Below the pieces are notes generated by a model. That model was not told where the DNA came from. It did not search any database and saw only the letters and a program-made list of their open reading frames with translations. The position numbers and the translations under genes were made by a program. 55,922 bases of DNA from Pseudomonadota bacterium (GTDB lineage: Bacteria; Pseudomonadota; Gammaproteobacteria; Steroidobacterales; Steroidobacteraceae). Location of the stretch: the NCBI GenBank assembly GCA_021815925.1, contig JAKAZL010000007.1, forward strand, positions 1-55,922, given 5' to 3'. Positions 18,644-24,304 of the stretch are shown here, one piece after another (the first letter of the stretch is position 1; each line of letters starts with the position of its first letter).

Positions 18644-21019
18644 CTAGAGGAACTTCTCCAGCGCCGCGCGCACCTCGTCCATGGTCTGAAAGCGCTTGTT
18701 CTTGTCGACTGCCATGGCGCGCATCACCGTGTCGGACAGCCCGGCCGGCAGCGCCGGGTTCAGCTCCGCCGGCGCACGCGCCTTGCCCTGCACGTGCTGG
18801 TACATCACCGACATGTGATCGCCGCGCGAGTACGGCGGGCTGCCGGTCACCATCTCGTAGAGAATCACCCCGAGGGCGTAGATATCGGCGCGCTCATCGA
18901 CGCGCTTGCCGAGGATCTGCTCCGGGGCCATGTACTTCGGCGAGCCGATCACGTAACCGGTGCGCGTCAGCTGTGTCTCGGTTTCGCGCTGCGCCGCGGC
19001 GACGCCGAAATCCACGATCTTGAGCAGCCCTTCGTGGTTGATCAGCACGTTGGCCGGCTTCAGGTCGCGATGCACGATTCCGGCCTGGTGTGCCACCGCC
19101 ATGCCGGTGCAGATGTCGATGCCGAACTGCAGCGCGCGCTTGAGCTCGAGCGGCTTCTCCCCGACGATCTCGCCCGACAGGGTGTGCGAGGGGAAGTACT
19201 CCATCGAGATGGCGTAATTGCCCTGGATGTAGAGGAAGTCGTAGATACGGATCACGTTGTGGTGTGTGATCTTGCGCGAGTAGCGCAGCTCGTGGACGAA
19301 GCGCTTCATCACTTCTTCGTCCGTCGCGACGTTCGGATTGAGGAACTTCAGGATCAGCCGCTCATCGACGACCGTGTCCTCCATCAGCAGCACGGTGCCG
19401 AAGGCGCCGCGGCCGATGCGCTCGAGGTACTTGTAGCGGCCCTCGAGGACATCGCCGGTGCGCAGCGTCTGGATGTCCAGCCGCTCGACCGCCGGGCGTG
19501 CGGCGGGCGGCGCTTCGGGCGGCTCCGGCGCGGCCTCCGGCGGCGGTTGCGGCTGGGTCGAGCCGAGCGAGGTCGCCGCGGTGGCGCCCGTGAGGCGTCG
19601 CTCCAGGTCGGCGAGCGCCGCTTCCGCGGCGCGGGCGATGGTCTGGTCGGTACCGCTTGCCTGGCTCTTCAGCTGCGTGCGCAGCACGTCGGCGCTCGCC
19701 GGATCGGCGATGTGCGCCAGGGCCTGCATCGCCTCGATGCGCACCTCGCGCTCGGGGCGCGAGAGCAGCGGCACGAGCGTGCCGGTGACCTGTCCGTCGC
19801 CGAGCTTGCCCAGGGCGCGTACCACCACCGGCAGGATCTTGGCATTGCCGCCCTGGAGCATCTCGAGCAGCCGCGGCACGGCGCGCTTGCTGCCAATTTC
19901 CGCCAGCGCGTCGACCGCCCGCTCGCTGACCCACCAGTCCGGATCGCGCGTCGCCTGGATCAGCGAATCCACCGCCCGCGGATCCTTGGTCTGGTTGAGG
20001 ATCTCGATGGCCGAGCGGCGGATGTCCTCGTCCTTGTCCCGAACCAGCTGCAGCACCGCGTCGATGACGCGCGGTCCGCCGATCCGCCCGAGCGCATCGG
20101 CCGCGCGCGAGCGCACCCACCAGTCGCTGTCCTTCAGCGCCTCCAGCAGGTGCTTGACCGACTTGGCATCACCGACCTCGTTGAGCACCTCGACGGCCGC
20201 GCGCCGGGCGTTCTCGTTCTCGTCCTTCAACACCGCGATCAGGTGGCGGATGGTCTCGGGGTGATTCGCCTTGATCACCACGTCGATGGCGCGGTTCTGC
20301 ACATCGATTTCCGGGTCCTTCAGCAGCTCGCAGACCCGCTCGACATCGATCTGTCCGTCCATGCGCTGCAGCGCCGAGAGCACCGCGCCGCGGATCAGCT
20401 TGTTCGGGTCGCGCAGCAGCCGCTGCAGCGCCGTGTGCACCTCCGGCAGGTTGAAGCGCGAGAGGATGTTGATGATGTGCACCCGGGCGATGGGGTCCTT
20501 GCCCTCCAGGCGCTGCAGCAGCTCCGGCAGCGTCGCTGGCGTGGCCAGCTCCCCGATGATCCGGAACAGTGCCGCCTTCTCGTTCGGCTCCTGGTTGTAG
20601 GCCGCCGCGAGCAGCTCGCGCAGCGTAAAGCGCGCCTTGTGCGCGCTGATGACCTCGAGCAGCGCCGATTTGGCGATCCCGGGGCTCGAGAGCGCATCGA
20701 GTAGCAGGTGCGGCGGGTAGTTGCGGCTGCTGGTGAGCGCCCAGGCGATGCCGGCGATCACCCGTGGGCTGCCCTGCACCAGGCCCTCGGCGAACTGGGG
20801 AAAGGTCTTGGCGCTGACCAGTGCGGCGAGCACATCAACGAAGGCGACCGTGGCGTTCTTGTCGGCCTCCGGCAGCGCCGCGAGCACCGGGGCAATGGCG
20901 CCCGCGCCCAGATCCTTCAGCCGCGCGACGGCCTTCTGGGTTTCCGGGTGAGTCGGGTCCGTCGACGACCGGAGGCTGGTGACCAGCCGGTCGGCCCGTA
21001 AATTGGTCAAAAACGCCAT
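18644..21019 (-). CDS. HEAT-repeat protein fused to a C-terminal Ser/Thr protein kinase
   Basis: This 791-residue soluble protein has two parts. Residues about 30-475 are HEAT-type helical repeats, with recurring units such as DSDWWVRSRAADALGRIG and DPDWWVSERAVDALAEIG. After a Pro/Ala-rich linker (480-515) comes a complete Hanks-type kinase: glycine loop GRGAFG (536-541), ATP Lys558, HRDLKPAN (650-657), DFG (670-672) and APE (698-700). All catalytic residues are intact, so activity is expected. There is no membrane segment and no PASTA domain. The repeats probably bind a protein partner. It lies upstream of two PilT-like ATPases on the same strand, suggesting but not proving a link to pilus control. 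Confidence 0.93.
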   Translation of the reverse strand: MAFLTNLRADRLVTSLRSSTDPTHPETQKAVARLKDLGAGAIAPVLAALPEADKNATVAFVDVLAALVSAKTFPQFAEGLVQGSPRVIAGIAWALTSSRNYPPHLLLDALSSPGIAKSALLEVISAHKARFTLRELLAAAYNQEPNEKAALFRIIGELATPATLPELLQRLEGKDPIARVHIINILSRFNLPEVHTALQRLLRDPNKLIRGAVLSALQRMDGQIDVERVCELLKDPEIDVQNRAIDVVIKANHPETIRHLIAVLKDENENARRAAVEVLNEVGDAKSVKHLLEALKDSDWWVRSRAADALGRIGGPRVIDAVLQLVRDKDEDIRRSAIEILNQTKDPRAVDSLIQATRDPDWWVSERAVDALAEIGSKRAVPRLLEMLQGGNAKILPVVVRALGKLGDGQVTGTLVPLLSRPEREVRIEAMQALAHIADPASADVLRTQLKSQASGTDQTIARAAEAALADLERRLTGATAATSLGSTQPQPPPEAAPEPPEAPPAARPAVERLDIQTLRTGDVLEGRYKYLERIGRGAFGTVLLMEDTVVDERLILKFLNPNVATDEEVMKRFVHELRYSRKITHHNVIRIYDFLYIQGNYAISMEYFPSHTLSGEIVGEKPLELKRALQFGIDICTGMAVAHQAGIVHRDLKPANVLINHEGLLKIVDFGVAAAQRETETQLTRTGYVIGSPKYMAPEQILGKRVDERADIYALGVILYEMVTGSPPYSRGDHMSVMYQHVQGKARAPAELNPALPAGLSDTVMRAMAVDKNKRFQTMDEVRAALEKFL

Positions 21020-21246: not shown

Positions 21247-22344
21247 ATGTCCGATGATCCGACCCTGGATGCCCTGCGCGCGGCCATCGAGAGCTATGTC
21301 GAGCCCCATTTGCACCAGAGCCTGCGGGAAGCCGGGGCGCTGCGCGAGCTGAGCGCAGCGCCGCAGGGCTACGCGGCGCGCATCGAGCTGGGCTTCCCGG
21401 TCGGGGGCTACCAGGAGAGGCTGGCCGGGGCGCTCGGCGCGCATGTGGCCGCCGCCGGCGTGCACCAGCCGGTGCGCTTTACCATCGAGGGGCAGATCCG
21501 CGCCCACGCGGTGCAGCGTCCCCTGCAACCGCTCGCGGGCATCAAGAACGTGATCGCCGTGGCCTCCGGCAAGGGCGGGGTCGGCAAGTCGACCGTCGCG
21601 GTGAATCTGGCCCTCGCCTGGGCCGCCCAGGGCGCGCGCGTCGGGGTGTTGGACGCGGACATCTACGGACCGAGCCAGCCGCTGATGCTCGGGTTGTCCG
21701 GCGAGCGGCCGAACTCGCCGGACGGCCAGCACATCATCCCCCTGCGCGCGCACGGGGTGGAGGCGATGTCCATCGGCTTCATGGTCGATGCCGAACAGCC
21801 CATGGTCTGGCGCGGACCGATGGTCACCCAGGCGCTGCAGCAGCTGCTCTCCCAGACGCGCTGGGGCGAGCTCGACTACCTGGTCATCGACATGCCGCCC
21901 GGCACCGGGGACATCCAGCTGACGCTCGCCCAGAAGGTGCCGGTCGCCGGTGCGGTGATCGTGACCACCCCGCAGGACATTGCGTTGTCCGATGCGCGCA
22001 AGGGGCTGAAGATGTTCGAGAAGGTCGCCGTGCCGGTGCTCGGCATCGTCGAGAACATGAGCGTGCACGTCTGCTCGAACTGCGGACACGTCGAGCACAT
22101 CTTCGGCGCCGGTGGCGGGGCGCGCATGGCCGAGCAGTACGGCGTGCGGCTGCTCGGGGAACTGCCGCTCGATGCGCGGATCCGCGAGGAGGCCGACGGC
22201 GGACGCCCGACGGTCGCCGCCGAGCCGGGCTCCGCCCGGGCCGAGGCCTATCTCGAGATGGCCCGCCGCACGGCCGGCGCGCTCGCCGTGCGGCCCGTCG
22301 ATCGCAGTGGTGTCTTTCCGAAGATCGTGGTCGAGAAGAGCTGA
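21247..22344 (+). CDS. mrp: Iron-sulfur cluster carrier ATPase Mrp/ApbC
   Basis: This 365-residue P-loop ATPase carries and delivers [4Fe-4S] clusters to apoproteins. An N-terminal MIP18-like (DUF59) domain occupies about 1-85. The deviant Walker A SGKGGVGKST follows at about residue 114, with LDADIYGPSQP, VIDMPPGTGD and the cluster-binding CxxC in VCSNCGH. The length and domain order are standard. It is divergent from the HEAT-kinase gene and precedes dcd by 163 bases on the same strand; mrp, dcd and metG commonly lie close together in gammaproteobacteria. Confidence 0.96.
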   Translation: MSDDPTLDALRAAIESYVEPHLHQSLREAGALRELSAAPQGYAARIELGFPVGGYQERLAGALGAHVAAAGVHQPVRFTIEGQIRAHAVQRPLQPLAGIKNVIAVASGKGGVGKSTVAVNLALAWAAQGARVGVLDADIYGPSQPLMLGLSGERPNSPDGQHIIPLRAHGVEAMSIGFMVDAEQPMVWRGPMVTQALQQLLSQTRWGELDYLVIDMPPGTGDIQLTLAQKVPVAGAVIVTTPQDIALSDARKGLKMFEKVAVPVLGIVENMSVHVCSNCGHVEHIFGAGGGARMAEQYGVRLLGELPLDARIREEADGGRPTVAAEPGSARAEAYLEMARRTAGALAVRPVDRSGVFPKIVVEKS

Positions 22345-22507: not shown

Positions 22508-24304
22508 ATGAGCATCAAGTCAGACCACTGGATCCGGCGCATGGCGCGCGAGCACGGCATGATCGAGCCGTTCGCCCCCGAGCAGGTCCGCTACGTCGAC
22601 GGTCACAAGATCGTCTCCTACGGCACGTCGAGTTATGGCTACGACGTGCGTTGCGCGGACGAGTTCAAGATCTTCACCAACATCAACTCCACGATCGTCG
22701 ATCCGAAGGCGTTCGACGAGAAGAGCTTCGTGGATCTGAAGTCAGATGTGTGTGTGATTCCGCCGAATTCCTTTGCGCTGGCGCGCACGGTGGAGTATTT
22801 CCGGATCCCGCGCAGTGTGCTCACTGTCTGTCTGGGTAAGTGTGTAACCGGCGATACCCGTGTGGTCGATGCTGATACCGGTGCCTACGTCCCCATTACC
22901 GAGATGCGTTGGGGCAAGAGTACGCTCGCCCATGATAATGGTCAGTTGCGGCGTGCCAAGGTCTCTGCATTCCTCCCTCAGGGTAAGAAGGCCGTATTTG
23001 AACTGCAGACGCGCGCCGGATTGAAAATCCGGGCGACGGCGAATCATCCGTTTCTCATGTTCAATGGCTGGACGGAGCTGCAGCACTTGCGTCCGGGCGA
23101 CAGGATTGCGGTGGCGAGGAACATACCAATCTTCGGCAAGACGCCCATTCCCGATTGGGAGGCAACGCTCCTTGGAATGATGCTGTCCGAAGGGCAATGT
23201 CACACGCCCGGCCACAGCCCGACTTACACGACCGCTGATCCAGCGCTCATACGTTTGCTGCAGTCAACGATGGCGGCTTCGGAACTGGGCGAGGTTACGT
23301 ACAAGGGGCGCCATGGATATCGCTTGGTGAACCGGGCGGGGCGCGGCGGTCAGATGGTCGCGAACCGGGCTCACCGTTGGCTCCAGAAGCACGGTTTGGA
23401 TGTCGGGGCAAGCGCCAAGTTCGTGCCGCAATGCATCTTTACTGCGCCGGAGGCATCGGTGCGCCTGTTTCTGCAGGCGCTGTTTGCCGGCGACGGCGGA
23501 TTGTATTGTTCGAGTGGCGGTGTATATCTTGAATATTACTCGAATTCGCGCCGACTGATCGAGGACGTCCGCCACCTCCTGCTTAGATTCGGGATTTTTT
23601 CACTCATCCGCGAAAAGACGACGCAGATTGGAACGCGCGCATTCACACTGCAGATCAATGACAAGGAGCAGGTCGAGCGATTTGCGAGTCGCGTAGGATT
23701 CGTGCCGGGGTCGGTCAAGCAGTTGCGGCTTGACGGCGAGGTGCTCGAATTCATCTGCAAGTATCCGCGCGTCAAGAGCAACTTCGACACTCTCCCCAGA
23801 GAAGCTTGGTCGACGCTGGCTTTGTCGGCGCGTGTCGCCGGCGTATCGCTCTATTCGCTTGGTGTCCGTGCTTCTGCGCGACAGTCGGTTCCGCTGGGCG
23901 CTGCCGCGCGCGTCCTCAGGGCGACGGGTAGCTGGTATATGGAAGGACTCGTTGACGGTCCCGTCTGGGATAGTGTTGTTTCAGTCGAGCCTGTTGGAAT
24001 AGAAGAAGTATATGACATCAGTGTCCCAACGCTACATAACTTCGTTGCCAATGATATGATTGTGCATAATTCCACGTATGCACGTTGCGGGATAATCGTG
24101 AATGTAACGCCCTTGGAGCCGGAGTGGGAAGGGCACGTCACGCTGGAGTTTTCCAACACGACGCCGTTGCCGGCGAAGATCTACGCCAACGAGGGTGTGG
24201 CGCAGATGCTCTTCTTCGAATCCGACGAAGTCTGCTCGACTTCCTACAAGGATCGCGGCGGCAAGTACCAGGGCCAGCGCGGTGTGACGCTGCCGAAGAC
24301 CTGA
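22508..24304 (+). CDS. dcd: dCTP deaminase precursor interrupted by an in-frame intein
   Basis: dCTP deaminase makes dUTP for thymidylate synthesis. The 598-residue frame is an N-extein (1-111, [12 protein letters not shown] to TVCLGK), a 410-residue intein (112-521) and a C-extein (522-598, STYARCG to VTLPKT). Joined exteins give 188 residues, the usual length for this Dcd subtype, with [36 protein letters not shown], the catalytic Glu in HVTLEFSN and [11 protein letters not shown] all present. The break falls between Lys111 and Ser522, inside the active-site/trimer loop, so unspliced protein should be inactive. The reading frame is open throughout, with no frameshift, and the splice-junction residues are intact. 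Confidence 0.97.
22841..24070 (+). mobile_element. Intein in dcd with LAGLIDADG homing-endonuclease domain
   Basis: This 1230-base in-frame insertion encodes 410 residues. Splicing block A starts with Cys112 (CVTGDTRV). Block B is ATANHPF with Thr177 and His180. Block F is [17 protein letters not shown], and block G ends VHN with His520 and Asn521, followed by Ser522 as the +1 nucleophile. Two endonuclease motifs, LLGMMLSEG (221-229) and LQALFAGDG (322-330), supply the acidic residues Glu228 and Asp329 expected of a two-motif LAGLIDADG enzyme. Everything needed for splicing is visible. Base composition differs from the host: I count 23 G/C in the 60 bases at 24001-24060. Endonuclease activity is inferred from motifs only. 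Confidence 0.96.

Follow-up and report, generated by a model that had tools for sequence, protein, structure and literature searches.

Inteins in dCTP deaminase (Dcd) are already known. According to the accessible part of its description, the intein in the Dcd (gp069) of cyanophage vB_AphaS-CL131 self-excises in E. coli, and the same text refers to Dcd inteins described before it from Proteobacteria and Chloroflexi (PMC6293099; MacGregor 2013; Novikova 2016). In a partial search of the literature on Dcd inteins, CL131 was the sole report found. Neighboring inteins have been described in other hosts, for which we likewise draw on the available portions of the papers. In Haloarchaea, MCM-a and MCM-d are neighboring inteins in one gene, MCM-a lies after the Walker-A Lys, and interference between the two endonucleases was shown (PMC10643990). 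Two sites only one residue apart, TerL1-a and TerL1-b, are described in one protein family of mycobacteriophages (PMC5050341). In M. smegmatis, DnaB carries two inteins, DnaBi1 and DnaBi2, and a P-loop Ser doubles as a splicing residue (PMC6195587).

The intein studied here lies on the window, i.e., the whole stretch of 55,922 nucleotides that was analyzed, and it occupies a site in Dcd different from that of the published CL131 case. Two insertion points, five residues apart, can be distinguished in dcd (a slash marks the point of insertion): site a, LGK/S, used in the window, and site b, STYAR/C, used in CL131. The two inteins are alike in interrupting Dcd in its conserved active-site region and in having the PF14890 splicing domain. 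The CL131 intein differs in its downstream position (STYAR/CFTGDTK...KN/CGII), its HNH_3 rather than LAGLIDADG endonuclease, its Lys-Asn end and its length of 352 aa. Since site b is empty in the window, its intein does not belong to the CL131 type (Dcd-b). The MCM-a/d pair differs from Dcd in its archaeal helicase host and its sites, and DnaBi1 differs from the window intein as a class-3 mini-intein in DnaB, although the double role of the P-loop Ser probably has a parallel in Ser522 of the window (available parts of PMC10643990 and PMC6195587). What sets Dcd apart from TerL1, as far as the accessible text of PMC5050341 describes it, is that sites a and b are both occupied in some genes. In a partial search of the literature on neighboring or multiple inteins, which covered little subscription literature, no co-occupied pair as tight as this one was found. 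The features of the locus are as follows.

21247..22344, + strand: upstream open reading frame, Mrp/ApbC-type P-loop sequence, recognized by eye
22508-24304, + strand: dcd frame with the intein, a single open reading frame of 598 codons with no stop
22508..22840, + strand: Dcd N-extein, residues 1-111, ending in ...VCLGK (phmmer match, query 1-112 to 4dhk 3-115)
22841..24070, + strand: class 1 intein at site a of dcd, residues 112-521, 410 aa (profiles, family comparison, structure match)
22841..22843, + strand: Cys112, N-terminal nucleophile at intein residue 1, conserved without exception in 15 family inteins and 24 aligned full proteins
23036..23047, + strand: block B, T177xxH180, with T177 and H180 invariant in the 24 aligned proteins
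23171..23194, + strand: LAGLIDADG motif 1 (LGMMLSEG) with presumed catalytic acid Glu228
23459..23698, + strand: Pfam LAGLIDADG_3 domain, residues 318-397 (66.2 bits, cut-off 22.5), containing motif 2 (ALFAGDG) with Asp329
24065..24070, + strand: block G, His520-Asn521, invariant in the 24 aligned proteins
24071..24301, + strand: Dcd C-extein, residues 522-598, starting STYARCG (phmmer match, E. coli alignment)
24085..24086, no strand assigned: empty site b (STYAR/C), filled by another intein in relatives and in CL131

On the minus strand, an open reading frame of 791 residues (18644-21019) looks, by eye, like HEAT-type repeats with a serine/threonine protein kinase domain after them. Elsewhere in the window's genome there are two further intein-like frames, one of 904 aa in a DnaB-like helicase and one of 732 aa in a radical-SAM-like protein, with both hosts assigned by eye.

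The first-pass annotation had described the frame as a 188-residue Dcd interrupted by a 410-residue intein, which the reading frame, phmmer and the profile matches bear out to the residue: the two exteins (1-111 and 522-598) sum to 188 residues and the insert is 410 aa. Aligned with Burkholderia thailandensis Dcd (4dhk; E = 3e-103 for the whole), residues 1-112 and 521-598 fall on neighboring parts of its chain, and the dCTP deaminase profile TIGR02274 scores 140.9 bits against a curated cut-off of 92.8. An uninterrupted dcd of the same length, 188 aa, is found in the congener G042, with 90% nucleotide identity to the window over the exteins. Residues 110-186 of E. coli Dcd (1xs1) pair with window residues 521-594 in phmmer, which places Ser522 opposite E. 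coli residue 111, provided that there is no gap before Ser522. A GKS...R pattern is present at the equivalent place in another bacterial Dcd (2qxx), and STYARCG (522-528) is invariant in the alignment of 24 full-length relatives. We take Ser111 and Arg115 of E. coli Dcd to be active-site (catalytic) residues. Ser522 would thus probably act as the +1 splicing nucleophile and, if the role of E. coli Ser111 holds, in Dcd catalysis too. The intein severs the active-site peptide from the sequence N-terminal to it, so that no Dcd activity is expected of the precursor before splicing.

The insert has the anatomy of a class 1 intein. It lies in frame within a conserved protein, and the flanks, once joined, give the normal host protein. 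It has a nucleophile, Cys112, at position 1, a TxxH motif (T177xxH180), a terminal His-Asn (H520-N521), and Ser522 at +1. The Intein_splicing profile PF14890 covers residues 123-521 with 79.1 bits (cut-off 35.8), and intein_Nterm TIGR01445 (112-183) and intein_Cterm TIGR01443 (500-522) also score above their cut-offs. The Hint fold is supported by the profiles and by an AlphaFold model of the precursor built from the alignment of 24 full-length sequences, in which confidence is high over most of the intein and low for the split exteins, which are poorly modeled. Residues 112-521 of the model best match solved homing-endonuclease inteins, i.e., TliVMA 7qss (Z = 33.8, rmsd 3.3, 370 aligned residues), 2cw7 (Z = 32.9) and 1dq3 (Z = 26.4). 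For the splicing half, there is a close superposition with the Ssp DnaB intein 1mi8 (Z = 25.1, rmsd 1.1, 137 aligned). The same splicing residues had been named earlier and prove invariant in the 24 aligned proteins; the description as a full-length intein in an uncommon host is likewise upheld, with family profiles above cut-off and the fold match speaking for the former, and the junction residues do look functional as judged from the sequence.

The endonuclease half appears intact. Two LAGLIDADG motifs carry Glu228 and Asp329, which are presumably the catalytic acids. The window has both acids, and 24 of 32 site-a inteins have them; the remaining eight are without at least one of them, and two of these also have large deletions. 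In four pairs that include the window, pN/pS is 0.22-0.30 for the endonuclease and 0.20-0.28 for the N-splicing block, values that are coarse because the window pairs are almost saturated at synonymous sites (pS 0.66-0.85). In two pairs including inteins without the acids, the ratio is 0.44 for the endonuclease vs. 0.17 for the N-splicing block, and 0.66 vs. 0.38. The window endonuclease is under purifying selection. The pattern among site-a endonucleases is the cycle of gain and decay known from homing inteins, and the window stands in its intact phase. Two short site-a Dcd inteins (L308, in genome G422, and L125) have no endonuclease motifs that we could see, i.e., they are mini-inteins.

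The computed history of the intein differs from that of its host. The closest grouping of the window intein is with those of genera g2 and g11 (intein tree, 97/94), whereas in the extein tree its Dcd groups with that of the congener G009 (86/84). The AU test rejected a constraint uniting the inteins of the window and G009 (P = 0.022) and one placing the Dcd exteins in the g2 and g11 group (P = 0.035); both P-values are modest, and the choice of groups was made with the first tree already in view. One intein with an internal stop (L083) and two cut by contig ends (L085 and L118) were left out of the trees. GC3 is 0.65 in the intein vs. 0.83 in the exteins, and the dcd genes of the close congeners G042 and G034 are uninterrupted. 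Because the two trees disagree, GC3 differs and close congeners have no intein, the data indicate that the window intein was gained horizontally, separately from that of G009. Within the intein, the last 34 codons (23969-24070) have a GC3 of 0.32 against 0.65 for the whole intein, and the other family inteins at site a have 0.59-0.91 there. Close to the insertion point, the window differs from two empty alleles at 9 and 10 of 60 nucleotides, against 47 and 59 of 504 elsewhere, a small excess that is too weak to prove a co-conversion tract.

We consider it highly probable that the frame encodes a precursor with a self-excising class 1 intein, and that this intein is a selfish, horizontally acquired, mobile LAGLIDADG element at Dcd-a. 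Under this reading, Cys112 would attack the Lys111-Cys112 bond in an N-S shift, Ser522 would take over the N-extein, and cyclization of Asn521 would release the 410-residue LAGLIDADG endonuclease and leave a joined 188-residue Dcd. The endonuclease would probably cut intein-free dcd alleles at LGK/STYARC, and repair would copy the intein in (homing). The window intein is probably still mobile.

A different role had been proposed in the first-pass annotation, in which splicing would be a switch on dUTP supply. One form of this idea, framed here, is that under oxidation Cys112 could bond to Cys108 of the extein (position -4), which would keep Dcd inactive and so tie dUTP/dTTP supply to redox state. 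Such control has precedent: redox regulation through an intein cysteine was shown for M. smegmatis DnaBi1, and an intein with its N-extein in a redox trap has been solved (3nzm), yet the endonuclease-bearing DnaBi2 is called fast-splicing and unresponsive in the accessible part of the same DnaB study (PMC6195587). A point in favor is that one dcd was found in the window's assembly; a separate dUTPase was found there too. Cys at -4, the one hint of a switch in these sequences, is present in all 32 site-a hosts examined, but also in 98 of 105 intein-free Dcds of the family, so that it is mostly ancestral and fails as a signature of site-a hosts. Moreover, most dcd genes of the family (106 of 150) do without any intein. 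The intact-looking endonuclease, purifying selection, patchy distribution and horizontal origin are those of a selfish homing intein; the proposed switch is not supported by them, and we regard retention of the intein for this purpose as improbable.

Even less credit can be given to a dead insertion or an assembly error, in which the frame would be open, no splicing would occur and dcd would be inactivated. The genome is a 143-contig assembly, 93.8% complete, and one relative (L083) has a stop within the same region, both of which leave some room for this explanation. Against it stand 598 codons without a stop, purifying selection, invariant splicing residues, an insertion point identical in other genomes, and the failure to find a second dcd copy in the assembly. 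Chance or mis-assembly as the source of the insert is very unlikely, because inteins 50-70% identical to it lie at the same insertion point in other genomes of the family, the same point is used in other taxa, and dcd is uninterrupted in close relatives. The selfish, mobile intein thus remains the preferred reading.

The distribution of inteins at the two sites was surveyed in the window's family. Among 217 genomes searched, 205 gave matches, and 150 dcd genes among the matches listed were read at the insertion region. Site a alone is occupied in 12 of them, site b alone in 29, both sites in three (G009, G064 and G101), and neither in 106; the last number comprises 105 genes and one further intein-free gene with STYARV (G138), which was unassigned by the script, and the census omits three contig-end fragments (L046, L047 and L048). 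Both exclusion and association of the two inteins were rejected, with three co-occupied genes observed against 3.2 expected from 15 and 32 of 150, uncorrected for kinship. The b tree, which includes 30 of the 32 family b-inteins, holds 34 site-b inteins of 190-376 aa, 13 of them 190-207 aa, and they mostly track genus. Fifteen of the 34 end in Arg-Asn, Lys-Asn or Ser-Asn and not in His-Asn, and CL131, published as splicing, ends in Lys-Asn.

Site a is also occupied well outside the family. A single scan with two short patterns across 84,980 species genomes returned 63 loci, of which 34 are Dcd site-a inteins, about 14 of these being family genomes already counted (matched by frame length). The titles of the records name Gammaproteobacteria, Betaproteobacteria, Burkholderiales, Steroidobacteraceae, Chromatiaceae, several Chloroflexota groups, Planctomycetia and Bipolaricaulota, among others. 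Going by record titles, bacteria with an occupied Dcd-a span four phyla. The Chromatiaceae include the isolates Allochromatium palmeri, Thiospirillum jenense, Chromatium okenii, C. weissei and Thiobaca trueperi. Two of the 34 loci end at a contig edge before the C-side, and six of the other 32 also carry an intein at site b: L068 (G064), L069 (G009), L091 (G101), L076, L084 and L094. Co-occupied genes outside the family census, with the same spacing of five residues, are seen in Chromatium okenii DSM 169 (L084) and the metagenome-assembled genome SJ706 (L076). When 369 genomes were sampled evenly across the class, a strict threshold of 1e-80, at which short or decayed inteins can be missed, was passed by just two, the window and G422 with the short a-intein L308.

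A phage or plasmid origin of the window intein was not supported by tblastn with the window protein, as no place covering 80% of that protein was seen among the 40 listed of 144 matching phage records or in 24 matching plasmid records. A scan of viral contigs with the window intein gave two loci matching only its last 21 residues, and a second such scan gave no Dcd-like site in the 80 loci kept of 109. On plasmid RPME01 of Methylibium petroleiphilum PM1 (L343/H63), where the dcd match breaks off at the site, a dcd frame stops soon after STYARCGI and contains no intein.

One of the co-occupied genes belongs to a Thermoflexales metagenome-assembled genome of the Chloroflexota (L094, 2680-6624), where a dcd frame of 1315 residues surrounds a 186-residue Dcd. 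Its a-intein has 412 aa and its b-intein 376 aa; a third insert, 341 aa long, lies at TPFEP/C...SGN/CWEG. The third insert matches Hint (E = 2e-5) and LAGLIDADG_3 (E = 3e-4), both under the curated cut-offs; a structure prediction made without an alignment has a mean pLDDT of 33, phmmer matches are weak (best an unrelated chain, E = 0.003; hedgehog, E = 0.03), and no relative appeared in a viral scan made for it. This gene is a probable triple-intein dcd. Genome G692, whose N-extein is 92% identical to that of L094, carries the b-intein only and reads EPEWEG where L094 reads EPCWEG around the third insert, which fits an order in which b came first and a and the third intein later, the third bringing its own +1 Cys. 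For G009, the b-intein groups with one of its own genus (91/87, long branch), and the a-intein joins g6 inteins in one tree (91/89) and is unplaced in the other; this hints, and no more, that a invaded an allele already bearing b.

The origin of the site-a inteins was examined in a tree of 30 inteins, 13 of them Dcd-a. Dcd-a joins RadA inteins at GK/ST (96/91) and then DnaB inteins at GK/T (96/88). DnaB and DnaE inteins from other sites fall elsewhere, and alternatives joining these to Dcd-a had AU P-values of 0.037 and 0.042. The five RadA and two DnaB Walker-A inteins (L109-L113, L116 and L119) share with Dcd-a a GK/S or GK/T junction. They are 492-495 aa long and their hosts are P-loop ATPases, whereas Dcd is not a P-loop protein. 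The simplest reading of these data is that Dcd-a arose by a jump from a Walker-A site into the P-loop look-alike LGK/ST, and our confidence in it is only moderate because the relatives come from a single pattern-driven scan.

Taken further, and tentatively, dcd may be a hotspot for inteins, with STYAR, an active-site peptide of five residues, flanked on both sides by separate mobile inteins: the a-inteins would descend from Walker-A (GK/S or GK/T) inteins through P-loop mimicry by LGK/ST, and those bearing an endonuclease could invade b-bearing alleles 15 bp away, giving rise to co-occupied pairs and the probable Chloroflexota triple. We put this somewhat short of an even chance. The hotspot around the window intein is a more interesting result than the window intein itself. 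What the window adds is a LAGLIDADG intein that is clean and probably mobile, hosted by a small enzyme of nucleotide metabolism outside the usual ATPases and polymerases. Its 188-residue host can be expressed and assayed in E. coli and thus makes a convenient system. With their two or three inteins a few codons apart, the dcd relatives make it testable how such inteins can splice and home without blocking each other, and whether target DNA resembling that of a P-loop lets inteins pass from one protein to an unrelated one.
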